Positions 2,041-48,309 of a stretch of 64,000 nt of DNA are shown here, piece after piece (positions within the stretch are counted from its first letter, which is position 1; each line of letters begins with the position of its first letter). Below the pieces are notes generated by a model. That model was not told the DNA's origin. It saw nothing but the letters and a program-made list of their open reading frames with translations, and made no database searches. The DNA comes from Nitrospira lenta. GTDB lineage: Bacteria > Nitrospirota > Nitrospiria > Nitrospirales > Nitrospiraceae. The stretch is taken from positions 1 to 64,000 of the forward strand of contig NZ_OUNR01000016.1 in NCBI RefSeq assembly GCF_900403705.1, in the 5' to 3' direction. Position numbers and translations under genes: made by a program.

Positions 2041-2274
2041 CAGTTGTTGAAAGCGTCCGCCAGCGGCACTTTTTCGGCGCCCAAGTCCTCAATGTACGGC
2101 GAGGGACAGGCTCCGGCGCAGCCGGTGCCTATCCCTCTGTTTGACGGGGACAGCCACCTGGCGGAAGGGTGGCCGTCCCCTCGCTTGCCGCGGTCTTTCC
2201 CGTGGGGCGGCGCGTCTTGGCGCGCCGGGGCTGAGCGGGTGAGATGGTCAGCCATTGTGAGCAACGTGCGAGAG
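2041..2274. repeat. Intergenic region with two adjacent palindromes between gspG and gspH
   Basis: The 234-bp gap carries two hairpins in tandem. The first (2101-2137) pairs GAGGGACAGGCTCCGGC with GCCGGTGCCTATCCCTC with two mismatches and a GCA loop. The second (2146-2180) pairs GGGGACAGCCACC with GGTGGCCGTCCCC with one mismatch. A further GC-rich stretch with inverted character (CGGCGCG...CGCGCCG) follows near 2210-2230. The frame of gspH is open across this stretch, but its translation is low-complexity and unlike a pseudopilin leader. I therefore regard it as non-coding and REP-like. Confidence 0.65.
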
Positions 2275-2901
2275 ATGTCCAGATCTCTTTCTTTCCTGGC
2301 TCTGCTCCGCTCGTCTCGCGTCAGGAGCGCAGGTGGTTTCACCTTGCTGGAGATGATCATCGTCATGTTTCTGTTGGCGGCGATGTTGGGGATCGTGATT
2401 CCGCGCATCAACTTGAACGACGATTTGGCGTCAACGGGCCGCAAGTTTATCGGAACGGTGCGAACGCTCCAAGGGATCGCGATGAGCTCGCAGAAACCGG
2501 TCAAGCTCTATCTGGACCTGGACCAAAATCAATACTGGGCGAAGACCATCGAGGGGAAAGAAGAGAAGCCCTTGTTGGACGCCGCCTGGGCAACCCCGCG
2601 CCTGCTTCCGGACACCATCCGTCTGGCCGAGGCGTCCTCCGGGTCAATCAAACGGACAGCCGGCCGCCTCGAATTGATGCTGTATCCCAACGGCCGGATC
2701 GATGAAGCGGTGCTGCATCTGACCGATGCCGGGAACAATGTGTTGGCCATCGTCATCGAAGCCGCCACCGGAGCGATTCGGACCAGTGATGCGCGGATCG
2801 AACCTCAGCGCCTCGCATCCATTCCTGATCGCGTCAGAACCCTCTTGGTTCCGACGACCATGACGGCTACTGGGAATCAAGTTGGCCTGCTCAAGCCGTA
2901 A
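2275..2901 (+). CDS. gspH: Minor pseudopilin GspH
   Basis: The prepilin motif GG^FTLLEMIIVMFLLAAMLG places this in the pseudopilin family. Position between gspG and gspI, and a C-terminal beta-rich domain with ...LYPNGRIDEAVLHL, fit GspH, a minor pseudopilin of the tip complex. The ATG at 2275 gives a 21-residue basic leader (MSRSLSFLALLRSSRVRSAGG). The frame is open back to 2044, but that extension overlaps the palindromes. No strong ribosome site precedes 2275, and a GTG at 2257 is an alternative. About 208 residues with this start. Confidence 0.85.
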   Translation: MSRSLSFLALLRSSRVRSAGGFTLLEMIIVMFLLAAMLGIVIPRINLNDDLASTGRKFIGTVRTLQGIAMSSQKPVKLYLDLDQNQYWAKTIEGKEEKPLLDAAWATPRLLPDTIRLAEASSGSIKRTAGRLELMLYPNGRIDEAVLHLTDAGNNVLAIVIEAATGAIRTSDARIEPQRLASIPDRVRTLLVPTTMTATGNQVGLLKP

Positions 2902-2916
2902 CGCCGCTCAAACGAT

Positions 2917-3342
2917 ATGTGGCCATACTCCCCCAAGAACGAACGCGGATTTACCCTGCTGGAGGTGCTGCTGGCCGTCGCAATTTTGGCGATCGCCCTC
3001 CCCGTGCTGCTGGGGCTGAGAAATTTCGATTTAGAACTACAATCCCGCGCCATGGAACTGACGACGGCGACGCTGTTAGCGCAAGAAAAATTGCTGGAAA
3101 CAGAACTCTCTGGCTCGTTCCCCATTGGAGAGACGACAGGAGAGTTTCAATTGCCGGCCCCCGGAGTCCTCACATCGATCTCGGAGCCCAATCGTGCGCC
3201 AGGGTATCGCTGGAAGCGCAGCATTGTGCCGACCCCGCTGGAACTCATTCGCGAAGTCAAAATTCAGATCTCCTGGCCCCGGGGCCAGCAGGATGAAACG
3301 TTGGAAGTGAGTACGTATGTCTTTGCCGGCCTCGCATTTTAA
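2917..3342 (+). CDS. gspI: Minor pseudopilin GspI
   Basis: A short basic leader MWPYSPKNERG is cleaved before FTLLEVLLAVAILAIALP, the class III signal peptide with Glu5. This is followed by the GspI-type pattern of an alpha helix with ...TATLLAQEKLLETEL and the SPNRAPGY/W-type strand region. At 141 residues it has normal length for GspI, the partner of GspJ and GspK in the pseudopilus tip. It lies 15 bp after gspH and overlaps gspJ by 26 bp, which implies translational coupling. Confidence 0.92.
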   Translation: MWPYSPKNERGFTLLEVLLAVAILAIALPVLLGLRNFDLELQSRAMELTTATLLAQEKLLETELSGSFPIGETTGEFQLPAPGVLTSISEPNRAPGYRWKRSIVPTPLELIREVKIQISWPRGQQDETLEVSTYVFAGLAF

Positions 3343-3931
3343 GCAAGAAGGCGGATTCACGCTGGTCGAAGCGCTGTTGGCGATTGCGTTGCTCGCCACC
3401 TTGGGAGCAATTGTGTTTGGATCGTTACTGACTACGACGCAGGTTGTGGATGCCGGTCGAGCGGCGGCGTCTCGGGAGCAGACAATTCGACGCGTATTGC
3501 GGTTGATGGGCGAGGAGCTCACGATCGGCGTCAAGGAAACAACGTTCCCCTGGGTCGGTCTGAACGGGACGCAAGACGGCCAGTCGGCCGATACCCTGGC
3601 CTTTGTGACGAGGGGGGACGGAGTCGGCGTGCAGGCCGCGGGCGAGAGCGAGATCGTGCGCGTGATTTATACGCGCGAAGGCGACCGCCTGATCCGATTC
3701 GTCCGGCGGAATCTCTATGGGCTCACCGATGAATCGGTTGACCAGGTCAATCTGGCGACGAAGGTGAAGGCGTTCAATGTGCGCTACTATAGTCGGCAAG
3801 GTCAGCTGTGGCTGGATGAATGGAGCTCAACCGGACCGCTGCCAGCGGCGTTGCTGGTAGAAATCACGTTTCAGGAGCCCAATGCCGACCCCTATACCAT
3901 TCGTGAATGGGTCACAGTAGGAGTTTCCTAA
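3317..3931 (+). CDS. gspJ: Minor pseudopilin GspJ
   Basis: The leader MSLPASHFKQEGG is followed by the prepilin helix FTLVEALLAIALLATLGAIV with Glu5. At 204 residues, with a long C-terminal beta domain containing SREQTIRRVLRLMGEEL, it matches GspJ (PulJ/XcpW), which forms the GspI-J-K tip trimer. Its start lies inside gspI, and its stop codon shares a base with the ATG of the next gene (TAATG), so the genes are tightly coupled. Confidence 0.92.
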   Translation: MSLPASHFKQEGGFTLVEALLAIALLATLGAIVFGSLLTTTQVVDAGRAAASREQTIRRVLRLMGEELTIGVKETTFPWVGLNGTQDGQSADTLAFVTRGDGVGVQAAGESEIVRVIYTREGDRLIRFVRRNLYGLTDESVDQVNLATKVKAFNVRYYSRQGQLWLDEWSSTGPLPAALLVEITFQEPNADPYTIREWVTVGVS

Positions 3932-4821
3932 TGGTGTGGCCCGGGAAGGATCTCTCAGCCTGGAAGGCCCCGCTGTTGTGGATGGCGTTTGGATGCAGCC
4001 TGTTGTTCCTGTCAATGGCTCTCACGTTTCCCTATGGGGCCTTACAGACGAGAATCATCGGGGAGCTACAGCGCGCGACCGGGATGGAAGTGCGCGCGGC
4101 GGACTGGGCGATCGGGTTTCCAGCGGCGATTGAGTGGCGACAGATGAGTTTGACGAAAGCTGACTGGTCTCCCCTGCAGGTGGGGCTGGTGCGGGCCCAA
4201 TTGGGGCTCTGGCGGTTGCTGATTGGCGGGGTGGCCCTGGATCTTACGGCGCAGATCGACGAAGCCACTGCGGCCCAAGGCACGGTCAAATTGACGATGA
4301 CCGCCGCGTCTTGGTCCATGACGGGGCCGGTGGCCATGGTTGGCAACATTCACACGCTCGATCTTTCGAAGGTCATTCGCCCTTTTGTGACACGGGGCAC
4401 CATGGATGGAGAGTTTACGCATCGGGTCGACGGCGCCGCGACCGCCGGCCTTGCCTCATTCGGCGAGGGTACGTGGAAAGCGAATGCCAAGGATCTGTCG
4501 CTGGATCACATTCCAGTCGGCAATGGCCGGATCCTCTCGCTGACCTTCAGCAGCCTCTCGATCGCTCTGGCATGCCGGGAGCAGATCTGCGAAGTGACTG
4601 AATTGAAGGGCGACGGAATCGACGGGTCGTTTTCCGGACAGGGAACGGTTACAATGCAGCAACCCTTACAACAGAGTCAGCTGGCGCTGTCGTTGACGGT
4701 GATTCCCGGTGTGGGATTTTCGTCCAAGGCTCCTGGGTTGGGTATTCCCCCCCTCCCGCCTGGAACGCCGTTTACGTTTAAACTGCTAGGAACATTGGCA
4801 CAGGCCAGGGTGGCGTTGTAG
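3931..4821 (+). CDS. gspN: Type II secretion protein N (GspN-like)
   Basis: The start at 3931 overlaps the gspJ stop (TAATG) and has GGAG eight bases upstream. The 296-residue protein has one N-terminal transmembrane segment (LLWMAFGCSLLFLSMALTFPYG). A long beta-rich periplasmic domain follows, with the repeating pattern of GspN/AsmA-like proteins (LQTRIIGELQRATGMEV, VALDLTAQ, GTVKLTMTAAS, GDGIDGSFSGQGTVTM). GspN in other type II systems is an accessory inner-membrane protein of unclear function. No gspC is visible in the operon, so this protein could take over bridging to the outer-membrane secretin; that last point is inference. Confidence 0.75.
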   Translation: MVWPGKDLSAWKAPLLWMAFGCSLLFLSMALTFPYGALQTRIIGELQRATGMEVRAADWAIGFPAAIEWRQMSLTKADWSPLQVGLVRAQLGLWRLLIGGVALDLTAQIDEATAAQGTVKLTMTAASWSMTGPVAMVGNIHTLDLSKVIRPFVTRGTMDGEFTHRVDGAATAGLASFGEGTWKANAKDLSLDHIPVGNGRILSLTFSSLSIALACREQICEVTELKGDGIDGSFSGQGTVTMQQPLQQSQLALSLTVIPGVGFSSKAPGLGIPPLPPGTPFTFKLLGTLAQARVAL

Positions 4822-20129: not shown

Positions 20130-21029
20130 TCAATGAATAGGGATTTGGACGGTGACTTCATTCCCCCGATCGTTGTAGCGAAGATTGGGAAAGAATGACC
20201 GGGCCAAGAAAATCCCCCGCCCGCTGGCATCTTCGACCTGGCAGGGCGCGGCGGTGCGATGCAGCAAGGTCTTCCATTGAAAGCCTTTCCCCTGATCGAT
20301 GATCCGATATTCCAGCAGTCCGGCCTGGCGGTCGCAATGGACATGGATAGTAACAGTGCGTTGGACCAGGCGCGGTTGCGCGAGCCGTTCTTGCACCAGC
20401 TGGCTCAAGCGATTCTGATCGATCGCTTGCTGTTTGACCTGGTAGGAAATTTCCAAGTTGCCGTGCTCGACGGCGTTGAGCAGCAACTCTTGCAGCGTGC
20501 CGCGGAGATGCAGCTGCGTCGTATCGGATAAAGCCCCGGCCGTGGCTCTGATCAACCAGGAGACAATGCCGGGGATGTGCCGCGGGTCTGAATCGACGGT
20601 CAGTTCGTAGTCGGAGCGTACCAGGCCCGGCGTCTCCGCCATATCGGCCGGAAGCAGATAGCGCGCTCGTTGCAATGCATGCGCCAGCTCTTCCACGCCG
20701 ACGGGCTTTTGCAAGAAATCCACGGCCCCAGCGCGCAACGCGTGGATCACCGCCTGTTCAGACTGATGTGCGGCCATCACGATGACCGGGCACGGCACCT
20801 GTCTGGCTCGAAGCGTTTGAGTCAACGTTAAGCCCGAGCCTTCCGGAAGGAAGGAATCGGTCAACACGATATCGGGGGCCGTGAGCTCGATGGTCGCCAA
20901 GGCGGTGGATGGGTCGGACGCCGTAATCACGGAGAATCCGCGATCTTGCAGGTGGCCCAAGATCTGCGCTTGCGTGTCCCGGCAGGGATCGACCACCAGG
21001 ACAGTGCAGGAAACCGTTGGCGTATTCAT
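20130..21029 (-). CDS. Receiver plus HATPase (anti-sigma kinase type) protein
   Basis: The 299-residue protein has a receiver domain (1-125, phospho-acceptor Asp58 in IVLTDSFLPEGSG, Lys in DFLQKPVG) followed by a GHKL ATPase of the RsbW/SpoIIAB type. The ATPase N-box LQELLLNAVEHGN, G1 DQGKGF and G2 GRGIFLARSFF are present. It should phosphorylate a STAS antagonist, with kinase activity gated by the receiver. Two STAS proteins and a PP2C phosphatase are encoded just upstream in the same operon, so this is the kinase arm of a partner switch. Confidence 0.85.
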   Translation of the reverse strand: MNTPTVSCTVLVVDPCRDTQAQILGHLQDRGFSVITASDPSTALATIELTAPDIVLTDSFLPEGSGLTLTQTLRARQVPCPVIVMAAHQSEQAVIHALRAGAVDFLQKPVGVEELAHALQRARYLLPADMAETPGLVRSDYELTVDSDPRHIPGIVSWLIRATAGALSDTTQLHLRGTLQELLLNAVEHGNLEISYQVKQQAIDQNRLSQLVQERLAQPRLVQRTVTIHVHCDRQAGLLEYRIIDQGKGFQWKTLLHRTAAPCQVEDASGRGIFLARSFFPNLRYNDRGNEVTVQIPIH

Positions 21030-21385
21030 GCCGCGGGCCTGTGTGCAATGTACTCGTTCAACGCCGTCATCAGTTGTTGTAACTCGTGGGTCACGCGGGC
21101 ACAGACCGGCTTGGCCTCATCGATACGGCCGGCTTTGCCGAGCGCTTCCAGTTGTTTGGTCGCTTCGAACAGTGCAGAGGCAGAGAATTGCAAGATCGCT
21201 CCCTTCATTCGGTGTGCGGCGCGGCTTAGTGCCTCGGCATCGCCGGCATCCATGGCTGCTTGTGTGGCGGCCATATCCAACGGCGCCTGTTCCAAGAACA
21301 GTTCGGCCAATGTCTGAAACAGTTCTTCATCGTCATCGACACGCGTAAGTGCATCCGCGAGATTGAATACGTCATCGGCGCTCAT
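21026..21385 (-). CDS. HPt phosphotransfer protein
   Basis: The 119-residue protein starts at the ATG at 21385, which overlaps the previous gene's stop (ATGA). The Hpt motif SRAAHRMKGAILQF places phospho-accepting His at residue 58 within a four-helix bundle. It probably passes phosphate to the receiver domains encoded immediately on either side. The layout recalls HptB next to HsbR in Pseudomonas, where HPt lies in the flagellar/chemotaxis neighbourhood. It overlaps the receiver-HATPase gene by 4 bp. Confidence 0.88.
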   Translation of the reverse strand: MSADDVFNLADALTRVDDDEELFQTLAELFLEQAPLDMAATQAAMDAGDAEALSRAAHRMKGAILQFSASALFEATKQLEALGKAGRIDEAKPVCARVTHELQQLMTALNEYIAHRPAA

Positions 21386-22581
21386 ACGCGGAACTCCAAT
21401 CCCAGCAAGGCGGCATCGTCGGGAAAGACCGGGGCTCCATGCCAGCGTTCGGCCTCCGCCATGAGCGCCGGCAGTGCCTCTTTGAGCGGTACGGATCGAT
21501 GGGCGCTGAGGGTGTCCTCTAAGCGCGCGGTGCCCCAGATTTCTCCCGTAGGCGCCGGTGCTTCGTAGACTCCGTCGCTCATGAGAACGACGCGGTCGCC
21601 ATCGGCAATCTGGATGGTGGTGAGTTCGTAGGTGCTGTCCGGTTCGAATCCCAGGGGAAGGTGCGCGCGAGTCAACCACTCGATGGCGCCGCCCCGCCGT
21701 TGAATGAGCGCGCCGCCGTGACCGGCTGTCGCATAGCTCAACTGATGAGTAGTGCGATTGAACGATCCGATCCAAATCGTAAAATAGTTGCCGTCTTTGG
21801 TCAGCGGATAGCGGGAGTTGGCCTCGGTCAACATCGCCGCCGGATCGTGCTGCGTGATGCAATGCCGGAGATTTTCTGGTCGGAGGAACGTGGCGAAGGA
21901 TGCCGCTCGCAATGCGGGGGAAACCCCATGGCCGGAGGCATCCAAAATGTAAAAGTAGATCGAGTGATCATCCCAGCTGGACACGTTGAAGAGATCCCCA
22001 CCGAGTGCCAGCGAAGGCCGATACGTCCAAGCCATATCGATCTGCGGGGCGATTTCTCCCTCTACAGGCAACAAGGATTGAATGTAGTCAGCGGCGGACT
22101 TGAGTTCGCCTTCCAACTCCCCTTGCTTGGCGCGCAGCTCATCGCGCGCGCTTTCAATGCTCCGGACCAGCGACGCGGCGCGCAGTCCAGATTGCACCCG
22201 GGCGATGACCTCCTGCTTGCTGGCGGATTTGCTCAGGAAATCGTCTGCCCCGCGAGCCAGCCCCTCGGCGATTTGCTCCGGCTGGTCGTGAGACGTCATC
22301 AGGATGAGCTGACTGGACAGGATGTCGGCGTCTTGCCGAACTTGTTCACAGACGGTCGGTCCATCCATTTCCGGCATCACCCAGTCCAGGATCGTCAGAT
22401 CCGGCCGTTCACGCCGCAGGATGGCGAGCCCTTCTTTTCCATCGCCGGCTTCGAGGACGCGCAGCCCCATCCGCTTCAGGCGGGCGGCCATACTCAAGCG
22501 GCTCACCGGCTCGTCGTCCACCAGGAGCACGGTGGCGGTGGCCGAAGGCGCAGCAGGTTTTACATTGGCATCAACATTCAT
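21382..22581 (-). CDS. Receiver plus PP2C-type (RsbU/SpoIIE) phosphatase
   Basis: With the start at 22581 the 399-residue protein has a receiver domain (VLLVDDEPVSRLSMAARLK; acceptor Asp in LTILDWVMPEMDG), a coiled-coil linker (SARDELRAKQGELEGELKSA) and a PP2C domain of the SpoIIE type. The metal-binding acidic residues are present (GGDLFNV, LDASGHGVSPAL, MSDGVYEA). It would dephosphorylate STAS proteins when its receiver is phosphorylated. An in-frame ATG at 22641 extends the N-terminus but overlaps the STAS gene more. Confidence 0.88.
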   Translation of the reverse strand: MNVDANVKPAAPSATATVLLVDDEPVSRLSMAARLKRMGLRVLEAGDGKEGLAILRRERPDLTILDWVMPEMDGPTVCEQVRQDADILSSQLILMTSHDQPEQIAEGLARGADDFLSKSASKQEVIARVQSGLRAASLVRSIESARDELRAKQGELEGELKSAADYIQSLLPVEGEIAPQIDMAWTYRPSLALGGDLFNVSSWDDHSIYFYILDASGHGVSPALRAASFATFLRPENLRHCITQHDPAAMLTEANSRYPLTKDGNYFTIWIGSFNRTTHQLSYATAGHGGALIQRRGGAIEWLTRAHLPLGFEPDSTYELTTIQIADGDRVVLMSDGVYEAPAPTGEIWGTARLEDTLSAHRSVPLKEALPALMAEAERWHGAPVFPDDAALLGLEFRV

Positions 22582-22594
22582 AGCGGCGCAATCG

Positions 22595-22939
22595 TTACGC
22601 GGCCTGGGCGGTGTTCTTGACCGCATCTCGCTCGTTATCAAACACCGGAATCAGCTTGGGGATATTGGCCAGCCCCAGAATTTCCCGCACGTAGCTTTGG
22701 GGGTTGAGCATGCTCACTTTCCCCTGATTCAGCTTGAAATTCTGGGAGACCAGCGCCAGCAGGCCGAGGCCTGAGCTGTCGACGAACCGCACATCGGCCA
22801 TATTCAAAATGACGTGACGGCAGCCTTTTTGGCGCAACGCTTCCACGGCGGCTTTAAAGGCGTCGCGATGGGCGTAGGTCAGATCTCCGTTGAGATCGAG
22901 AATGACGGCGTTGGGAATCGGGCGTTCTTTGATTTGCAT
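22595..22939 (-). CDS. STAS-domain anti-sigma antagonist (2)
   Basis: The 114-residue single-domain STAS protein has the phospho-serine loop VRFVDSSGLGLL, so Ser is available for the kinase. N-terminal beta strands (AVILDLNGDLTYAH) are normal. It is one of two adjacent STAS genes feeding the kinase and phosphatase encoded downstream. Confidence 0.88.
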   Translation of the reverse strand: MQIKERPIPNAVILDLNGDLTYAHRDAFKAAVEALRQKGCRHVILNMADVRFVDSSGLGLLALVSQNFKLNQGKVSMLNPQSYVREILGLANIPKLIPVFDNERDAVKNTAQAA

Positions 22940-22992
22940 CGTGGATGTCCTTTCATGTGAGTAAACCGAATGCTGCTATGACGGTCCTGCGG

Positions 22993-23331
22993 TCACGCGG
23001 CTTTTGCGCCGATAGCTAGATCTTCGCTTGCGTAGGTCGGAATCATCTGGTCGATGTGCGCGAGCTGCAAGACCTGTTTCACGGTTCCCTGGATGCCGAC
23101 CAACGAGAGTTTGCGGCTGGTGCCTTTATAGTGTTGCGAGCTCAAGGCGAGGAGCCCGATGGCCGCGCTGTCGACAAAGGTCACCTGCTGGAAGTTTAGA
23201 ATGACGTGCGCGCTCCCCGACTGTTTGACCTTTTCCATCGCCGCGGTAAATTCCTTGCGAGTCCCGAAATTAAATTGTCCGCTGATGGATATGACATCGG
23301 CATTCCGATAGGTGCGATGGGTGATCTGCAT
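22993..23331 (-). CDS. STAS-domain anti-sigma antagonist (1)
   Basis: The 112-residue STAS protein has the phospho-acceptor loop VTFVDSAAIGLL and the usual N-terminal pattern DVISISGQFNFGTR. It differs substantially from the neighbouring STAS protein, so the pair looks functionally distinct rather than a fresh duplication. It lies 16 bp after cheB. Confidence 0.88.
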   Translation of the reverse strand: MQITHRTYRNADVISISGQFNFGTRKEFTAAMEKVKQSGSAHVILNFQQVTFVDSAAIGLLALSSQHYKGTSRKLSLVGIQGTVKQVLQLAHIDQMIPTYASEDLAIGAKAA

Positions 23332-23347
23332 GACAAACCTCCAGAAG

Positions 23348-24415
23348 TTATGAAAGACGTGATACGTGCGTCAGTACCGCTCCGGCGATATCTCCCAAGG
23401 GGAGAATTTTGTCCACGCCGCCGAGCTTGATCGCCTCTTTGGGCATGCCGAACACGACACAACTTGCTTCATCCTGCGCGATGGTATAGGCGCCGGCCTG
23501 TTTCATCGCGAACATTCCCTTGGCTCCGTCGCCGCCCATGCCGGTCAGAATGACTCCGACCGCATTCGCCCCGGCATATTGCGCGACAGAATCGAAGAGC
23601 ACATCGACCGACGGGCGGTGACGATTGACCGGTGGATCCTGAGTGATCCGCACGGAATAGCGCGCGCCGCTGCGCACGAGCGCCATGTGATAGCTTCCCG
23701 GCGCCACGAGGGCATGTCCCGGCAACACGCTGTCCCCGTCTTCAGCTTCCTTCACGGAAATGCGGCAGAGTTGATTCATCCGGTCGGCCCAGGTCTTGGT
23801 AAACCGTTCGGGCATATGCTGGGTGATCAGAATCGGCGGAGTGTTGGGGGGAAGGACTTCGAGCACCTCTTTAACGGCCTCCGTCCCGCCGGTGGAGGAG
23901 CCGATGGCGATGATGGTATCCGTCGTTTTGATCATCGCCGAAGAGAGATGTGTGACCACCCGTGGCGCCGGAGCCTGCCCGCTTCCATTGGCGGCCTGCA
24001 CCGCTCCTCGAATTTTCGCGACGGCGGCCGCTTTGACCTTTGCAATCAAGTCATCCGCGATGTCTTCCATGCCTTCCCGAAGATCGATCTTCGGTTTGGT
24101 GATGAAATCGACGGCGCCCAACTCCAAGGCCCGCAATGTCGTCTGGCACCCGGCTTCCGTGAGCGAGCTCACCATCACGACCGGCATGGGGCGGCCCCGC
24201 ATCAGCTTTTCCAGGAATGTGAGCCCGTCCATTTTCGGCATCTCGACGTCCAAGGTGATGACATCGGGATTCAAGGCCTTGATCTTCTCGCGCGCTATAT
24301 AGGGATCCGGAGCCGATCCAACGACTTCAATGTCCGGATCTTTCGAGAGCAATTGCGCGAGGACTTGGCGCATCAAGGCGGAATCGTCGACGGTAATGAC
24401 GCGTATCTTCCCCAT
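23348..24415 (-). CDS. cheB: Chemoreceptor glutamate methylesterase CheB (cluster 1)
   Basis: From the ATG at 24415 (GGGAG upstream) the 355-residue protein has a receiver domain ([11 protein letters not shown], acceptor in [11 protein letters not shown]) and a methylesterase domain. The catalytic triad is present: Ser in [10 protein letters not shown], His in ITQHMPERF and Asp in LTGMGGDGA. It demethylates or deamidates receptors when phosphorylated by CheA. The distance between cheB and cheD is short, and cheR-cheD-cheB are co-ordered. Confidence 0.96.
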
Positions 24416-24436
24416 AAGACAGTCTCCCGTGGGCAA

Positions 24437-25054
24437 TCAAAACAATGTGATATCGCTCTGCGGCTGCTCTTGCGCCTCTTCCACCTTGTGTTGGTACGCG
24501 ACTTCCCGGTCGTAGATCGTGCGATTCTTGATCTTCTCAATCTTCTTCATCAGCACACGTCCGGAGTCCGTGAAGTAGTACACTTTGCGCGGATACACAT
24601 CGCCGAGATCGCTCTTCGCGAGATTGAGCCCTTCGGCTTTTAGATAGTTCAGCACCCATTCCGTATTGCGCGCGCCGACGTCGATGTTGCCTTCATAGAT
24701 CTTTCCGGCTCCGAATAGCTTCACTTCCAGCCGAGTCTTTATCCCGCCGCGTTGCAAAATTCCGTTGATCAGCTGCTCCATGGCAAAGGACCCGTAGCGG
24801 GTGGATTCCCCGCCCCAGGCATCCCCGGAATGATGCGCTTTCGGCGCCGGCAGCATGAAATGATTCATGCCGCCCACGCCCGCGATCGGATCGCGAATGC
24901 AGGCAGAAATGCAGGAACCGAGCACGGTATAGACCACCATCGGCTCCCGGCTGACAAAAAACTCTCCCGGAAGAATGGAGGCAATCTCGTGGGGAAACCG
25001 GCTGTCAGTCACGCGGCGCACATGACTGAAATGTTCCGTGTCGATCACTGGCAT
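24437..25054 (-). CDS. cheD: Chemoreceptor glutamine deamidase CheD
   Basis: The 205-residue protein has the CheD catalytic pair: Cys in VVYTVLGSCISAC and His in GVGGMNHFMLP. The usual KLFGAG segment follows. CheD deamidates receptor glutamines and in some systems works with CheC. It ends with an unusual acidic tail SDITLF, echoed by the MCP/CheZ-like protein in the same operon. It lies 4 bp after cheR. Confidence 0.95.
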   Translation of the reverse strand: MPVIDTEHFSHVRRVTDSRFPHEIASILPGEFFVSREPMVVYTVLGSCISACIRDPIAGVGGMNHFMLPAPKAHHSGDAWGGESTRYGSFAMEQLINGILQRGGIKTRLEVKLFGAGKIYEGNIDVGARNTEWVLNYLKAEGLNLAKSDLGDVYPRKVYYFTDSGRVLMKKIEKIKNRTIYDREVAYQHKVEEAQEQPQSDITLF

Positions 25055-25058
25055 GGGG

Positions 25059-25877
25059 CTAGCCTTCTTTCCAATAGATCGTCGGGGCGACCGTCTTGAA
25101 GGAATGCTTGACCCATTGCAGACTTTCGGAATGGCCGATGAACAAATGGCCTCCGGGCTTGAGGCATTTGTAAAACTTGCCGATCAGCCGTTCCTGGGTC
25201 GGCCGATCGAAGTAGATCATGACATTCCGACAGAAAATGAGGTCCAACGGTTGCTTGATGGGGAAGCGGTCATCCATCAGATTCATGCGGCGGAATTTGA
25301 TGATGTCGGAGAGATGCGGCTTCACCTTGACAAGGCCGCGTTTCTCGCCGCGGCCTTTTAAGAAATGGCGCCGCGCAATGTCGGGCGGCACGGTTTTGAT
25401 GCGCTCTTCGCCGTAGAGTCCGGCGGCGGCATGGGCGAGCACGCGGGTGGAGATATCCGAGGCGAGGACTTGGAAATTCCACTGTTCTGGATGCGGCACG
25501 CTTTCATGGAGCGTGATGGCGATGGTGTAGGGTTCTTCGCCGGTCGAGCAGGCGGAAGACCAGATCCGAATGCACTTCTCCTTGGCGAGTCCCGGCAGAA
25601 TCCGGTCGCGGAGAAAATCGAAGTGTTTGGGTTCCCGAAAAAAGTCAGTCTTATTCGTCGAGAGCAGATCCAGCATGCGCGTGAACTCGACGCCGCTGTC
25701 ATCGCCGGTGACGAACTCGTAATAGGCATCGAAGCTATCCAACTGCAGTTCCCGCAGGCGTTTTGAGAGGCGCGACACGACCAGGGATTGTTTGTTGTCT
25801 CCGAGCGAAATGCCGCTTTCGTCGTAGAGCAGCGTACGGATGTGATCGTATTCTTTGACGGTGATGGGGTACTCCAT
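25059..25877 (-). CDS. cheR: Chemotaxis methyltransferase CheR (cluster 1, pentapeptide-type)
   Basis: The 272-residue SAM-dependent methyltransferase has the CheR N-terminal helical domain, SAM site IWSSACSTGEEPYT, and IFCRNVMIYFD. Its beta-subdomain loop RHFLKGRGEKRGLVKV has the same length as the E. coli pentapeptide-binding loop. It is three residues longer than the loop of the second CheR in this window. It therefore probably docks on a C-terminal receptor pentapeptide such as the DFEEF of the receptor encoded upstream. Confidence 0.95.
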   Translation of the reverse strand: MEYPITVKEYDHIRTLLYDESGISLGDNKQSLVVSRLSKRLRELQLDSFDAYYEFVTGDDSGVEFTRMLDLLSTNKTDFFREPKHFDFLRDRILPGLAKEKCIRIWSSACSTGEEPYTIAITLHESVPHPEQWNFQVLASDISTRVLAHAAAGLYGEERIKTVPPDIARRHFLKGRGEKRGLVKVKPHLSDIIKFRRMNLMDDRFPIKQPLDLIFCRNVMIYFDRPTQERLIGKFYKCLKPGGHLFIGHSESLQWVKHSFKTVAPTIYWKEG

Positions 25878-25881
25878 GGTC

Positions 25882-26343
25882 TTATTCCTTGTACCAGACG
25901 AATATCATCATATAGACGAGATAGGCGGTGCCTATCGTGCCGGAGAATGTCCAGAGCAGGAGATGCCCGAGTCTCCGATGCGTCGTCATGCCGGCCGCCA
26001 TGGCGCCGACACTGCCATAGCGCAGACGATGCAGGCCCATGTAGAGGTTGTACCCTCCGAGTCCGATCGTGCTGACAGCAAAGAGCATGTGGGTGGCGAA
26101 GACAGGCAGATAGAGGGTCCAGTATTGCTCGCTTGTGCCGCCGAAATGCTCCCTGCCGAACATGATTTGTTTGAGTACGTAAGCGACAAGCCAAATCCCA
26201 ACGACCGTGCAGGCAATAATCATCCGGCGCGAGTGGTGCGGGACATCATGACTCTTGGCCGAACGCACCCCTGCCAGGGCGACGAAATAGGCTCCGGTGA
26301 TGCTGGTTAAGACCGCATACCAAAGGAAGGATTTTAGATCCAT
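25882..26343 (-). CDS. DUF420 family membrane protein
   Basis: With the start at 26343 (GGAAAGG upstream) the 153-residue protein has four transmembrane segments. The DUF420 histidine pattern is present: HHSRRMI, THMLFA and HRRLGH, with a C-terminal W..tgtiGTAYLVYMMIF. Family members often lie near haem-copper oxidase or cytochrome genes; function is unproven. Here it sits 177 bp after a globin chemoreceptor and 4 bp before cheR, within a chemotaxis operon, which is unusual. Confidence 0.8.
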   Translation of the reverse strand: MDLKSFLWYAVLTSITGAYFVALAGVRSAKSHDVPHHSRRMIIACTVVGIWLVAYVLKQIMFGREHFGGTSEQYWTLYLPVFATHMLFAVSTIGLGGYNLYMGLHRLRYGSVGAMAAGMTTHRRLGHLLLWTFSGTIGTAYLVYMMIFVWYKE

Positions 26344-26475
26344 GATATCCTTTCCAGTCATTGGTGGCGCCTGTACAGCCACGCCTCCGTATCGGTCCGT
26401 TCGTGTGGAATCTTTACTCGTGGATCGTGGAAAGACCGAATTGATCGTGTGTGGGAGGCCCGTCGAAGCGAACGG

Positions 26476-26519: not shown

Positions 26520-29357
26520 CTAAAACTCTTCAAAATCGTCGTCTTTCCGGCGGCGATCATGGCCGTTGCCCGCTCCGACGCCGACCGGTGCCTTGGCCTC
26601 AGCGGGTTTCGAGGTAAAGGCCGGTTTCTTCAGTCCTGCTTTCGCGCCGTTGCCGGCGCTCATGGGCTTGGGAGCCGGCTTCGTGGCTGCGACGTACTCA
26701 CGCCGCGGAGCGGAATGATTGTCTTCGGCCGATGTTTTGAAGACTTCGACTTGCGACATCAGTTCCTTGGCCTGGTCCTTCATGGACTGACTGGCCGAGG
26801 TGGTCTCTTCCACCAGCGCGGCGTTCTGCTGCGTGGTTTCGTCCATCTGCATGATGGCCTTATTCACCTGGTCGATGCCGCTGGCCTGCTCCTGCGATGC
26901 AGCCGTAATCTCGGCGATGATGTCCGTGACGCGCTTGACGGAGCTGACAATCTCTTCCAGCGTTTTGCCGGATTGATTGACCAACTCGCTGCCGTCGGAG
27001 ACGCGCTGGATGGACTCGTTGATGAGTCCCTTGATTTCTTTGGCCGCTGTAGCGGAGCGTTGGGCCAAGTTGCGGACCTCGGCGGCCACGACCGCGAACC
27101 CACGGCCGTGCTCCCCTGCCCGGGCCGCTTCGACCGCGGCATTCAAGGCCAGGAGGTTGGTCTGGAACGCGATCTCGTCGATCACCGTAATGATGTCAGC
27201 AATCTTCTTGCTGCTCTTGTTGATTTCGCCCATCGCTTCGACCGCCCGCACCGTGACCGATCCGCCCTTGTCCGCGATATCGCGCGCGGTGATCGCCAGC
27301 TGGTTGGCCTGCTTTGCGTTGTCGGCGTTCTGCTTCACCGTGGACGTCATTTCTTCCATCGAGGCGCTGGTCTCTTCGAGCGACGAGGCCTGTTCGCTGG
27401 TGCGCTGCGAGAGATCTTCGTTGCCTTTGGTGATCTGCTCGGCGCCGGCCGTGACACTTTCTGCGGCTTCGCGGACGGTGGTCAGTGCCGTGCCCAACGT
27501 CTGGATGGCCCCGTTCAAGCTGGACTTCATCTGATCGAACTCACCCTCGTAGGACCCGGTCATTTGCTTGGTGAGGTCGTTGGCTGCCATCGCCGTCAGA
27601 ACCATTTGGGCTTCGTGCAATGGCGAGACCACCGCATCCAGCATCTTATTGATACCCAAGGCGAGGGATTTGAAGAAACCCTCGAACTCTTCGGCTTTCA
27701 TCCGTTGGGAGAGTTCTCCCGCAGCCGCCGCGCCGATCAGCTTGTCGATTTCGTCTTGCGCCTTCTTTTGCGCAGTGATGTCCGCCCATTCGAGCGTGTT
27801 GCCGAGATATTCTCCTGAATCGGACACGATGGCGCTGACGGTCAGGGAAAGCGTCAACGGCCCCAGCTTGATGTCCGCCCGGTGGGGAAGATTCTTCGGG
27901 TCGCCCAAGAGCCGGCGCTGCATATCGGGGACTTTATGGAAGCTGTCGATGCAGGTGCCGACAATTTTTGCGGTGTCGAACGCCGGCAGCACCTTGCGAA
28001 TTTCACTTTCCAAGGCCTTCAGCTTGTTCAGAGCCGCTTTGTTGATGTAGGTGATCGTCAGGTTGCGGTCACACATCAGCACGTTGCTGGTGGAGTTATC
28101 GAGTGAGTTCTTCAGCGTCGCCATGTCTCGCTCGGCTTTCCGCTTGGCGGTGACATCGGACCATTCGAGAGAGTTGCCGAGATATTCGCCATTCTCGGAG
28201 ATGATCGCGCCTACATTGAGTTCGAGAAGCAGCGGGCCGAGCTGGATATCCGCCTTGTGAGGCAAGTTGTTCGGATTGTCGAGCAGGCGGCGCTGCATCT
28301 CCGGGGCCTTGTGGAAGCTATCGATGCAGGTGCCGACGATGGTATCGGTATTGAAGGCCGGCATCACCTTGCGAATCTCGTGCTCGAGCGCCTTTAATTT
28401 ATCGTACGCCGCTTTGTTGATGTAGGTGACCCGCAGATTCCGATCGCACATCAACACGTTGCTGATGGAATTGTCCATGGCGGACTTCACCAGGGCTTTT
28501 TTCTTTTCTTCCGTAACATCCAAGGCAAACGTGACGACTTTGGAGAGCTTGCCTTTCGCGTCCATAATGGGATTGTAGGACGCCTGGATCCAGAGTTCCT
28601 TCCCGCCTTTGCCGAGGCGTTTATAGACGCCGGCATCCAATTCGCCGCGGTTCAATTTGGCCCAGAAGGCTTGGTACTCAGGGCCGGCGGCATAGGCCGG
28701 ATCGATGAACATCCGGTGGTGCTTGCCTGTAAGCTCATCGAGGCTATAGCCGAAACAGTTGAGGAAATTGTCGTTCGCCGTGATGATCGTCCCATCGAGA
28801 TTGAACTCGACGACGGCCTGAGAGCGGTTGATCGCGTCTACTCGCGCAGCAAGATCCTTAGCGTCAAGCTTACCGGGTTTGGTGGTGGGTGCTTTCTTGC
28901 TCGTGGCCATCTTCATTCCTCCTTGTTGGATTGACGCCGGACGCGGTTCAGCTTCGCGAGCGCCTTCAAGCATGATGTGTGCGATTGTATTCAGGGCATC
29001 GGTCCAAGCCTGTTTGACATCGTGCGTCCAGGCCGGCCCGGCCAGTTCTCCCATGACTCCCAGCAGCGTTTCCGCCACCGCGCCGTAGTGAGCCGGCTGC
29101 GTGCCGTAGGCGACATGCCGGGCGCCGAGTTGCTTGAGCGCGGGCGTCAGCGTCTCCGGCTTGCGGAGGTTCTGCATGACCAGCACGAGCGAGCCGAGCA
29201 GTTTCTTTTTTTGCTCGGACATCGGCGTGCGAGCGAACATCGGCTTGACGGCCGGGTATTTGTCGAACAACCGCTCATAGAAGCGGCTGACCAGCGCTTC
29301 AGCCTGGGGTTTCAATAATGCAAAGCTGGATTCCAGTAACCCGACGTTCAAGCCCAT
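26520..29357 (-). CDS. Soluble globin-PAS-PAS-PAS chemoreceptor
   Basis: The 945-residue protein has no transmembrane segment. Residues 1-135 are a flavohaemoglobin-like globin domain with proximal His81 ([22 protein letters not shown]), Tyr27 at the B10 position (SRFYERLF) and Gln49 at E7. A PAS domain follows (about 175-285), then two near-duplicate PAS-like modules (about 288-405 and 413-530), a HAMP-like linker and an MCP signalling domain with the tip [26 protein letters not shown]. The C-terminus ends DDDFEEF, matching the aromatic-x-x-aromatic receptor pentapeptide. It is likely a gas or redox sensor feeding the adjacent CheA/CheW. A strong internal ribosome site precedes Met150. Confidence 0.9.
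28908..28924 (-). promoter_or_regulatory. Internal ribosome binding site and start within the globin chemoreceptor gene
   Basis: Read on the minus strand, AAGGAGGA (28924-28917) is followed by ATGAAG and then ATG (28910-28908), Met150 of the long frame. Spacing of GGAGG to Met150 is 7 bases, ideal for Shine-Dalgarno initiation. It falls between the globin and the first PAS domain. It could allow a globin-less PAS-MCP isoform, or be the relic of a former separate gene. Confidence 0.55.
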
Positions 29358-32655: not shown

Positions 32656-33744
32656 TCAAAACAACACAATGTCTTCCGTCGGCGCTTGCGCATCCGCTGT
32701 CGGGCTGCTTTTGCCGGCGCTGGAATGGATGAGCCGCTCATCCTGCATGGTGTAACGGTTCTGCAAGTCTTGGATGAAGCGGCGCGTGCCGTCGAATGAG
32801 GCCGGCGCATGCCCGGTTTGGACGGCTGTCAGATCCTGCAACAGGAGATCCAAGGGCTCCATCACATGCTCAATCTGTTGGCGGACGCTGTCCTGAAATT
32901 GGAGGGACATGATGATGGATGCGATGTCCTGCCCGATACGTTCCGCATTCACTTTGGTTTCTCCGACATTCAACCGCAAGGCCTCGTTTTTGTCGGTCAG
33001 GGATTTGGTCATCCCGTCGAGCTTATCTTTGGAATTCAGCGTCTTCGTCAGATCGACGGAGGCCAGCGCCTGGATTTCGATCATCGCCTGCTGGCTTTGC
33101 GTCTGAACGTCGGCCACCATGGTTCTAATCCCAATGGCCGCCTGGCTCGAGCGGTTGGCGAGTTTCGTGACCTCATCGGCGACCACGGCGAATCCCCGGC
33201 CATGTTCTCCAGCGCGGGCGGCCTCGATCGCTGCATTCAGCGCCAGTAAGCGGGTTTGGTCGGCGATAAACGTAATCTCTCCCAACATGCCGCTGATCGA
33301 CTTCGTGCTGGCATCCATCTTGTCCATGGTGGTGGAGACGCTCATGGCGATGGTGGCGGAGTGCATGACGTCATTGACGAAGAGTCCGAACATCTCCGAC
33401 ATCTGCGCGACCAGATCCTCTTCACTCACATCGCCGTTGGTGAAGAGGGCGGCCGATTCGGAGGCCTGCTGTCTGGCTCTTCCGGCGATGTCTTGAAAGC
33501 GCTGGCCTAATTGCATGATGGCCTGCTCTGTTTGTGCGATCACGTTCCGGAGTTGGCCGGTGAGGATCGGCACTAACGGCGCCAGCGTGGCGCAGATGGC
33601 TGTTTCGGGAGCCTCCCGATCAGCCATCTCTATCGCCTTCGCGAGTGCGGCGGCGCTGGTGGCCTGCTTGGCGCGACAGACGAACCACGCTCCGGTAACA
33701 CCACAGGCCGTTCCTGCAAGAAACGTCGCTCCTTCAATCCACAT
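32656..33744 (-). CDS. MCP-like protein with CheZ-type motif
   Basis: The 362-residue protein has one N-terminal membrane segment ([17 protein letters not shown]) and no periplasmic sensor domain. Residues 161-196 are the MCP hairpin tip ([20 protein letters not shown]). The C-terminal third contains [15 protein letters not shown] (280-294), resembling the CheZ catalytic helix, and it ends EDIVLF, like the CheD tail. It may couple receptor signalling to CheY dephosphorylation, or be a cytoplasmic receptor without ligand domain. It overlaps the STAS gene by 11 bp. Confidence 0.8.
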
Positions 33745-34012
33745 AGGTGACCTTGCATCCCTTCGGCGGCACCCAGCCTAAACAGGCCAACTGTCCGGCG
33801 ATACGTTTCGGCGTGTTGCGGAGTTCAATGGGGCCGGCTTCGCAGGCCGCGATGAGCGTTTGCAGGGCCGAGATGTCCAGCGTGCCGACTTGCGCGAGGT
33901 CGATGGCCACCCCGTGTCCCAGGTCGATGGCCGCCTGGAGCTGCCCTTTGAACTCGGCGATTTCAAAAATGGTGATATCTCCTGTCGGGGCGCACGGTGT
34001 TGGATCGGTCAC
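33734..34012 (-). CDS. STAS-domain protein at the head of the chemotaxis operon
   Basis: This 92-residue STAS-like protein starts at GTG with GGAGA upstream. The acceptor loop reads [13 protein letters not shown] rather than the usual D-S-S/A-G-x-L, so the serine is one place shifted. It is the first gene after the sigma-28 promoter at 34075. Its role may be to link the partner-switch module to the receptor it overlaps (inference). Confidence 0.7.
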
Positions 34013-46155: not shown

Positions 46156-46752
46156 TCAAGCACTGGCGCGTCTGGCTCGGAGCCGTTCTGCCTGTGTCTG
46201 AATAATGTGGCGGATAATATGCTCTTGCTCATCTGGGGCCAGTTCGACGTACTGTGTGGCGATGAGGTAGCCGGGTGCTCCGGTCAGCGGTGACGTGCGA
46301 ATGACCTTCGCAGTGGTGTTGACGGGAGTGAAGGGCGGAAGAATCAGCTTCAGCGTCAAGAGGTCCGACGGTTGGAATGGTCGCGGTGAGACGAAACTGA
46401 TTCCTCCCCCGCTGATATTTACCTCGGTGAGTCGCGCGATGGCGATACTGTCAGGCTGCATATGCGCCATGCCGCGCAGCAGTACCTCCATCAACCAATC
46501 CACTTTCATGATCCACGGAAGCAAGGGAGACGTCGCCAGCGCATCGCCTGAGCGCGCAAGCAGATCGGCGGTCGGTTTGCCGACGGCAGCCGCAATCATC
46601 TCGTCGGTCAGCGGCGGCGTACTCGGCTGAGGGGCGTCGGCTGATTCGCTCGTCAGGCGGTACTCCATCAAAAGATGGTCGTCGACACGGATCCACTCCC
46701 GGCGTTCATCGACGGCGAGAGAAGATTCTTTGAGCGACTGGGTGTGATTCAT
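46156..46752 (-). CDS. PilZ-domain protein
   Basis: The 198-residue protein has the c-di-GMP binding motifs RREWIR (residues 17-22, RxxxR) and NISGGGISF (DxSxxG type), about 100 residues apart, with an inserted helical segment between. It is the last gene of the flagellar run and directly follows a diguanylate cyclase gene, so it likely reads out that signal. Its partner is unknown. Confidence 0.88.
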   Translation of the reverse strand: MNHTQSLKESSLAVDERREWIRVDDHLLMEYRLTSESADAPQPSTPPLTDEMIAAAVGKPTADLLARSGDALATSPLLPWIMKVDWLMEVLLRGMAHMQPDSIAIARLTEVNISGGGISFVSPRPFQPSDLLTLKLILPPFTPVNTTAKVIRTSPLTGAPGYLIATQYVELAPDEQEHIIRHIIQTQAERLRARRASA

Positions 46753-46779: not shown

Positions 46780-48309
46780 TTAGGCGGCGACGCAGAGCGT
46801 GGCCGCCTGAACCGGAGCGAGTGGAACTGGCGCATGGACGACCACGCGATTACGCCCCTGCGCCTTCGCGTGGTAGAGAGCCGTATCGGCTGCATTGACC
46901 CAATCTTCAACCGAGGCAATGGCCGGGTTGCACACTTCGGCGATTCCAATGCTGGCCGTCAACCGCACCGTGCCGTCTTCGACGTCGAATGCATGGGTTT
47001 CAATGAGGTTGCGCAGGCGCTCGGCTAAGGGCTGAGCCTGCTCGATTGAGGTATGGGGCAGGATGATGGCAAATTCCTCTCCCCCGTACCGGCCGACCAT
47101 ATCGACGTCGCGCACCGTGTCGGTCATCAACGAGGCCAGCTCCCGCAATACCAGATCGCCGGCCGTGTGCCCTAAGCGGTCGTTCACGGTTTTAAAGTAG
47201 TCGAGATCCAGAATCGCCAGGCAAGCCGGCGCTCCGTAGCGGAGGCCCGCCTTCAATTCACGCATCAAGGGTTCATCGAGGGCACGACGGTTGAAGACGC
47301 CCGTCAGAGGGTCTCGCAAAGCCATGTCGTGGAGATCCTGGTGGGCATCGGCATTCCGCAACGTGAGGGAGAGTGACGTGCCGATGGTTGCCAACAACTG
47401 CTGTTCGTCTTCTGTGAAGGGCTGGGATCCCGCTCGTTGAACGTGGAGCACCCCGATGGCGTGCGGTCCGATCGCCAGCGGAATGTCGTGCATCGCGTGG
47501 GCGTCCGGCTGCGGGAGCGCAAGAAGGGCATCGTCGCTTCTTATCGACGGCATGGGATGCGATCCGACCAGGCGCAAGGTCGTCGCTCCTGCTGTGACTC
47601 GCTGCGGCGCTCGTCCAAGCCGTCCGAGTAGTTGGGCGTTGAGGGCCTGTTCCCGTTCCTGATTGCCGTCCTTCGACCACGTCCACACGTGTTCCGGATT
47701 TGTGCGGACTAAACCAATCAGGTCTGCCCCGATGAGTGCGGGGACGCCGGTAAAGAGGGCTTGAACGACATCTTCGGGCTGTAAGGATCTGGCCAGCGCT
47801 TGCGTCAATTGATTGAGTCCGGCCAAGCGTTGATTGAATTGTTTGAGAGTATCGCGCTCATGGGCCAGCGATTGATTGGCGGTGGCGAGATCTCCGGAGA
47901 GGTTGCGGACTTCCAAAAAGATTTGGCGGTTGGTGAGCCCACTGGTCAGAGAGTCGGTCAGGCGCGAGAGGGAACAGGGCCAATTGACATAATCGAAGGC
48001 CCCGTTGCGAAGAAACTGCGCGACCGTGTCCGGTTTCTGGTTCCGTCCGACGAGAATAATACAGAGGTCACTTTGTCGAGCGGCCATGGCCTTGAGGAAA
48101 GCCAGCGTGTCTGCCGCGCGCGCGCCCGCTTGATACACGATAGCCTGGACATCCGCGGTGCGGCCGGTGATGAGTGTGCAGTCTCGTTTTGCGACGGGCA
48201 CGAAGACCAATCCTTGTCGCGCGAGCTGAATCCAGCGCATGTCACGATGGAAAGCCGGGGTTCCGGCGAGCAGTATACGCGAGCGACCGTCGTGCGATTG
48301 CTGGCTCAC
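46780..48309 (-). CDS. Diguanylate cyclase with degenerate receiver and GAF domains
   Basis: This 509-residue protein starts at GTG, overlapping the preceding gene by 4 bp. Residues 1-130 resemble a receiver but lack clear phospho-site residues (CIILVGRNQ, FDYVNWPCS). A coiled coil and a GAF-like domain (about 165-320) come next, then a GGDEF domain with the active site GGEEF at 409-413 and the inhibitory I-site RDVD at 400-403. It should make c-di-GMP with product inhibition. The PilZ gene follows 27 bp later. It ends in a short hydrophobic tail. Confidence 0.9.
   Translation of the reverse strand: MSQQSHDGRSRILLAGTPAFHRDMRWIQLARQGLVFVPVAKRDCTLITGRTADVQAIVYQAGARAADTLAFLKAMAARQSDLCIILVGRNQKPDTVAQFLRNGAFDYVNWPCSLSRLTDSLTSGLTNRQIFLEVRNLSGDLATANQSLAHERDTLKQFNQRLAGLNQLTQALARSLQPEDVVQALFTGVPALIGADLIGLVRTNPEHVWTWSKDGNQEREQALNAQLLGRLGRAPQRVTAGATTLRLVGSHPMPSIRSDDALLALPQPDAHAMHDIPLAIGPHAIGVLHVQRAGSQPFTEDEQQLLATIGTSLSLTLRNADAHQDLHDMALRDPLTGVFNRRALDEPLMRELKAGLRYGAPACLAILDLDYFKTVNDRLGHTAGDLVLRELASLMTDTVRDVDMVGRYGGEEFAIILPHTSIEQAQPLAERLRNLIETHAFDVEDGTVRLTASIGIAEVCNPAIASVEDWVNAADTALYHAKAQGRNRVVVHAPVPLAPVQAATLCVAA

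Follow-up and report, generated by a model that had tools for sequence, protein, structure and literature searches.

A candidate partner switch in the chemotaxis operon of Nitrospira with phosphorelay input predicted to enter through the phosphatase

The described systems that most resemble the locus analyzed here are HptB-HsbR-HsbA of Pseudomonas aeruginosa and CrsR-CrsA of Shewanella, which share with Nitrospira an HPt protein, a receiver, a PP2C phosphatase, a SpoIIAB-type kinase, and a STAS protein. The phosphorylated serine in the Pseudomonas system, which operates in a flagellar, sessile-motile context, is Ser56 of HsbA (PMC6482189). SypE-SypA of Vibrio fischeri also places one STAS protein under a kinase, a receiver, and a PP2C domain but, unlike Nitrospira, joins all three in a single polypeptide with the receiver at its center. 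Separate kinases and receiver-PP2C phosphatases that act on a STAS protein, with input at the phosphatase, occur in RsbKY/RsbVW (Bacillus cereus), RsfSR/RsfB (Mycobacterium smegmatis), and RbaVWY (Rhodobacter capsulatus); the kinases of these systems are described without a receiver, and the descriptions include no HPt gene or che operon. Histidine-kinase control of such phosphatases is known for RsfR (PMC10950880) and for RsbY and RbaY (PMC3999984, PMC10950880).

A receiver attached to an RsbW-type kinase is itself already known. LvrC (Leptospira) and TciR (Vogesella) have the same architecture as the Nitrospira kinase, with an N-terminal receiver followed by a C-terminal Bergerat (RsbW-like) domain. 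In 2025 this arrangement was still described as lacking functional characterization (PMC12826045), and a first structure and donor kinase were reported in 2026 for LvrC, whose canonical receiver takes its phosphate from LvrB (PMC13269768); the receiver of the Nitrospira kinase is degenerate by sequence. The TciR paper listed Nitrospira among the taxa with TciR-like proteins. The organism of TciR has no RsbV homologue, whereas the Nitrospira operon includes STAS proteins, a phosphatase, and an HPt protein. The unusual part of the present locus is the genus-wide degeneration of that receiver inside an HPt-containing che operon. Our search of the open literature retrieved neither a study of partner switching in Nitrospira nor one that joins pseudoreceivers with RsbW or PP2C proteins.

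The analyzed DNA (hereafter the window) was a 64,000-nucleotide stretch from Nitrospira lenta, whose genome is 3.76 Mb. On its minus strand, the genes run motA, motB, a short STAS protein, an MCP-like protein, cheY, cheA, cheW, a globin-PAS-MCP, a DUF420 protein, cheR (25059-25877), cheD (24437-25054), and cheB (23348..24436), the last three being neighbors conserved by synteny and assigned by Pfam. Directly downstream of cheB, on the same strand, lie STAS1 (22993..23331, 112 aa; Pfam STAS PF01740, E 3e-17; TIGR00377; anti-sigma-antagonist-like), STAS2 (22595..22939, 114 aa; STAS, E 3e-19; TIGR00377), a receiver-PP2C (SpoIIE) phosphatase (21382..22581, 399 aa; Response_reg, E 1e-25; SpoIIE, E 9e-38), a stand-alone HPt protein (21026..21385, 119 aa; Hpt, E 1e-10), and a degenerate receiver fused to a SpoIIAB/RsbW/LvrC-type kinase (20130..21029, 299 aa; Response_reg, E 2e-22; HATPase_c_2, E 7e-12). 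The order proposed in an initial sequence-only reading was thus found intact, with the phosphatase and the kinase as separate receiver-bearing proteins and the HPt gene between them. For the phosphatase we preferred the ATG at 22581 because the listed TTG at 22641 would overlap STAS2, and for HPt we took the ATG at 21385, which gives a protein shorter than the listed frame. With these starts, about 13 nt separate the STAS2 stop from the phosphatase ATG, and 4-nt ATGA overlaps join the phosphatase to HPt and HPt to the kinase; the junctions of the five genes are those of one operon.

Three hallmarks of a partner switch of the SpoIIAA/AB/IIE or RsbV/W/U type were recognizable by sequence, namely the Asp-Ser serine of the STAS proteins, the kinase boxes, and the PP2C motifs. 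In switches of this type the STAS protein exchanges partners as the kinase adds its phosphate and the phosphatase removes it, a cycle that is predicted here. The resemblance to HptB-HsbR-HsbA that the same reading had drawn holds for the shared parts, including a stand-alone HPt protein that is encoded with the switch and whose gene overlaps those of both enzymes. The Nitrospira switch is not a strict HsbR system because HsbR is a single chain with one receiver, whereas the present locus encodes two enzymes, both bearing a receiver, of which that of the kinase is degenerate; some Nitrospira species also have a second STAS protein.

We then compared the locus across the genus, using genomes that are mostly metagenome assemblies. 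A full-length orthologue of the kinase was present in 33 of the 35 same-genus genomes searched, and loci throughout the genus repeat the order cheR-cheD-cheB-(STAS1)-STAS2-PP2C-HPt-kinase, so the arrangement is not due to chance. A scan of named genomes retrieved 54 loci with STAS2, phosphatase, HPt, and kinase together, and cheB lay on the same stretch in 48 of them.

A typical CheY-like receiver relies on two metal-holding acidic residues, on Asp as the acceptor, on Thr or Ser, and on Lys. The phosphatase receiver has the full set (D22 D23, D66, T96, K118), and a canonical set (D-D or E-D, D, T or S, K) was present in nearly all of 60 aligned phosphatase receivers; two clearly depart from it, both of them extra tandem copies. 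At these positions the kinase receiver of the window carries D14 P15, D58, A86, and K108, so that the second acidic residue and the switch Thr are lost while Asp58 and Lys108 are kept. None of the 59 readable Nitrospira kinases had a canonical receiver, each having lost the acidic pair, the Thr, or the Lys. Most have Ala or Gly in place of Thr together with a D-P or D-S pair; a clade of ten kinases lost the acidic pair in other ways and carries Gln for Lys. The acceptor Asp was retained in 56 of the 59 (Glu replaced it at three loci), and Lys108 was kept in most. Judged from general knowledge of receivers, D-P together with A86 probably impairs normal Asp phosphorylation, and the retained Asp58 and Lys108 leave room for weak or unusual phosphorylation. 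Failure to accept phosphate, named in the sequence-only reading as an observation that would count against it, is, on sequence grounds, probable for the kinase receiver and not for that of the phosphatase.

Because the 59 kinases are related by descent, their shared loss counts as approximately one event. Among outgroup kinases (Nitrospinota, Planctomycetes, Aminicenantes, and Delongbacteria), 15 of the 16 fully readable rows had canonical receivers, as did two kinases of a related genus in the same order. A quick tree built from the ATPase domain only, with several weak branches, accounts for this pattern by two changes, a loss basal to Nitrospira and a second change confined to one outgroup row. 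Nitrospira also contains a paralogous locus (L126/L159) with a hybrid kinase (two receivers and an HPt domain), two small receivers, a STAS protein, a receiver-PP2C phosphatase with an intact receiver, and a kinase that consists of HATPase_c_2 without any receiver. A second paralogous locus (L121/L158) is similar and partly decayed. We excluded the L121/L138 paralogues as evidence for loss of the receiver alone, given signs of partial decay in both their PP2C and kinase genes, whereas L126 was intact enough to be counted. Since the receivers of the outgroups and the related genus are canonical, those of Nitrospira are degenerate, and one paralogue has no receiver, phosphorelay input to the kinase probably predates Nitrospira and was lost within it.

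The rest of the kinase keeps its ATP-binding residues. Its N, G1, and G2 boxes are intact (N185, D245, G247, G249, G270, G272), and the ATP-binding motifs are conserved genus-wide with few substitutions, so that the sequence gives no sign of a kinase domain unable to bind ATP. Over 55 loci, the kinase receiver showed 58% identity compared with 61% for its own ATPase domain and is thus still under constraint; the corresponding values for the phosphatase were 79% for the receiver and 63% for the catalytic domain. The AlphaFold model of the kinase (pLDDT 85) had 9qih, LvrC of Leptospira, as its best full-length PDB match. This entry is deposited as SenB, and the fold search names it as LvrC. The VIA-align matches listed for the kinase are receiver domains and bear on the receiver half alone.

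The remaining components retain the residues expected for activity. The phosphatase, which among solved chains is nearest to Pseudomonas RssB (3eq2), keeps the acidic metal-site motifs of PP2C enzymes (GGDLF, DASGHG, SDG, and DD). The phosphoacceptor of HPt is His58, within HRMKG, and the H-x-x-K-G motif was kept in 58 of 58 aligned proteins. Both STAS proteins carry a phosphorylatable serine, at Ser55 within VDSAAIG in STAS1 and Ser55 within VDSSGLG in STAS2; solved structural relatives of STAS2 include SpoIIAA. The Asp-Ser pair was conserved in all 58 aligned STAS2 sequences and in all aligned STAS1 sequences. The two proteins are 41% identical to each other, and the suggestion that they form a two-output system does not extend to the genus: STAS1 was present in 25 of 54 loci and missing from 29. 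STAS2 had a mean pairwise identity of 79% over 55 Nitrospira loci, and STAS1, where present, changed faster (66% compared with 90% for STAS2 over the loci that have both). On the basis of this distribution and rate, STAS2 is predicted to be the core substrate and STAS1 an accessory, variable one. Two loci (L116 and L119) contain an extra tandem STAS-phosphatase pair.

These features, drawn from sequence, synteny, and structure models, are consistent with a partner switch in the chemotaxis operon that has a one-sided phosphorelay input, by way of the phosphatase, a reading to which we assign a probability of roughly 0.6. A hybrid histidine kinase encoded elsewhere in the genome would pass phosphate from its receiver to His58 of HPt, and HPt would hand it on to the phosphatase receiver at Asp66. 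Switched by that receiver, the PP2C domain would dephosphorylate Ser55 of STAS2 and, where present, Ser55 of STAS1. Because its receiver is a pseudoreceiver, the SpoIIAB-type kinase would re-phosphorylate the STAS proteins outside phosphorelay control, the pseudoreceiver having presumably been retained for a structural or docking role. STAS2 without its phosphate would then bind a partner in a flagellar or surface-behavior program. The sign of the control could go either way: in the HsbR model phosphorylation raises phosphatase activity (PMC6482189), whereas for RsfR it was measured to lower it (PMC10950880). Of the adjacent CheA or hybrid kinases named in the sequence-only reading, the che cluster that holds the operon has two CheAs, and no hybrid kinase was found in the 64-kb window. 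Several hybrid kinases without an HPt domain of their own are encoded in the genome; in HptB-HsbR-HsbA, the phosphate of the HPt protein comes from hybrid kinases.

A further step, that the genus-wide pseudoreceiver replaced phosphorylation control of the kinase, is more tentative, and we would put it at somewhat less than even odds. The pseudoreceiver would then serve as a non-phosphorylatable dock for HPt, the phosphatase, or a STAS protein, and a phosphorelay that formerly acted on both opposing enzymes would have lost its hold on one of them.

An output like that of HsbA in Pseudomonas, in which unphosphorylated STAS2 would release FliA by binding FlgM, is possible but doubtful. FlgM, a partner that the sequence-only reading had proposed to look for, is indeed encoded, as is FliA, on the same contig, in a neighboring flagellar region ∼65-75 kb from the switch; a GGDEF protein at 46780-48309 and a PilZ protein at 46156-46752 lie within the window. 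One locus of the related genus (L053, in the genome that also contains L051, described below) has fliA immediately before such an enzyme pair, in the order flhA, flhF, flhG, fliA, receiver-PP2C, receiver-kinase. One Nitrospira genome (G002) without flagellin, FlgM, and FliA is also without the kinase, and another (G014), in which FliA is present and flagellin was undetected, has lost the STAS genes and has its kinase gene broken by a transposase. Against this stands a 99%-complete genome (G021) without flagellin, FlgM, FliA, or the flagellar CheA that nevertheless keeps phosphatase-HPt-kinase; its contig ends at the phosphatase gene, leaving the STAS2 position outside the contig. The flagellar link is therefore real but not exclusive, and FlgM is unlikely to be the only target.

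The same genome weighs on a different source of phosphate. CheA (or another kinase) might phosphorylate the phosphatase receiver directly, with HPt draining phosphate to another receiver and so setting the lifetime of the signal. CheA passes phosphate to receivers and not to HPt proteins, and the operon lies in a che cluster with two CheAs and with no hybrid kinase in the window; moreover, the switch HPt has no hybrid kinase within ∼3 kb, unlike both of the genome's other short stand-alone HPt frames. Retention of phosphatase-HPt-kinase in G021 without an orthologue of the flagellar CheA argues against this scheme, as does a locus of the related genus (L051: cheB, cheR, a PilZ-like gene, STAS, HD-GYP, a hybrid kinase with its own HPt, and a receiver-kinase with a canonical receiver) in which the hybrid kinase is directly upstream of the receiver-kinase. 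We consider the scheme improbable.

The original proposal, that one phosphorelay switches both enzymes, is not supported by the comparison of receivers and now seems quite unlikely. Both receivers would take phosphate from the same HPt, so that a single relay would raise phosphatase and lower kinase activity. The receiver fold on both enzymes (Pfam, AlphaFold, and structure alignment), the HPt gene overlapping each by 4 nt, the Asp58 and Lys108 of the kinase, and the phosphorylation of the canonical LvrC receiver by LvrB (PMC13269768) all favor it. The kinase in the window, however, has lost the second acidic residue and the switch Thr; the acidic pair, Thr, or Lys is gone in 59 of 59 kinases (with Lys replaced by Gln in one clade and Asp58 by Glu at three loci) whereas the phosphatase receivers are canonical with few exceptions; and one paralogous kinase has no receiver. 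Direct transfer from CheA to HPt was rejected as a standard step because it would be His to His, a non-standard chemistry that skips the Asp step, so the receiver of a hybrid kinase would be needed.

Nitrospira are major nitrite oxidisers, and to our knowledge their choice between swimming and surface life has been little studied. The operon described here is a concrete candidate for a switch between these states, present in nearly all flagellated Nitrospira searched. Its kinase receivers, canonical in related genera, degenerate in Nitrospira, and absent in one paralogue, also provide a clean natural case that bears on the route by which a two-component signal reaches a paired kinase and phosphatase.

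Two of the retrieved loci, L116 (4226-6345) and L119 (567-4029), contained tandem STAS-phosphatase-STAS-phosphatase arrays followed by the HPt and kinase genes, and the receiver motifs were changed in the additional phosphatase copies. Additional receiver-like frames similar to the kinase receiver were observed in L113 (2798-3406), L117 (802-1326), and L118 (7027-8013), all from one Nitrospira clade, where they were located just upstream of the kinase gene or overlapped it. At L154 (8075-9707) of genome G014, a transposase splits the kinase gene, and the STAS genes and cheRDB are absent; this module is a copy undergoing decay.

The che operon that carries the switch module in the window also encodes a methyl-accepting protein (26520-29357, minus strand) in which a globin domain at the N-terminus is combined with PAS domains and HAMP_2, and for which a role in oxygen or gas sensing is likely. 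Flanked by this gene and cheR in the same operon is a gene for a DUF420 membrane protein (25882-26382, minus strand), which synteny comparison revealed to be retained in close relatives. A third, shorter STAS protein (33734-34012, minus strand), encoded between motB and an MCP-like gene, possesses the motif LDIS and lacks the phosphorylatable Ser directly after the Asp.

On contig 12 of genome G000, locus L147 encodes a dCache-PAS-PAS-PAS-HATPase_c_2 protein (2077-4755). Its domain content places a SpoIIAB-type HATPase_c_2 directly at the C-terminal end, and no HisKA was found in this protein. We consider it a possible sensor serine kinase, which could target the STAS proteins of the switch module as well.
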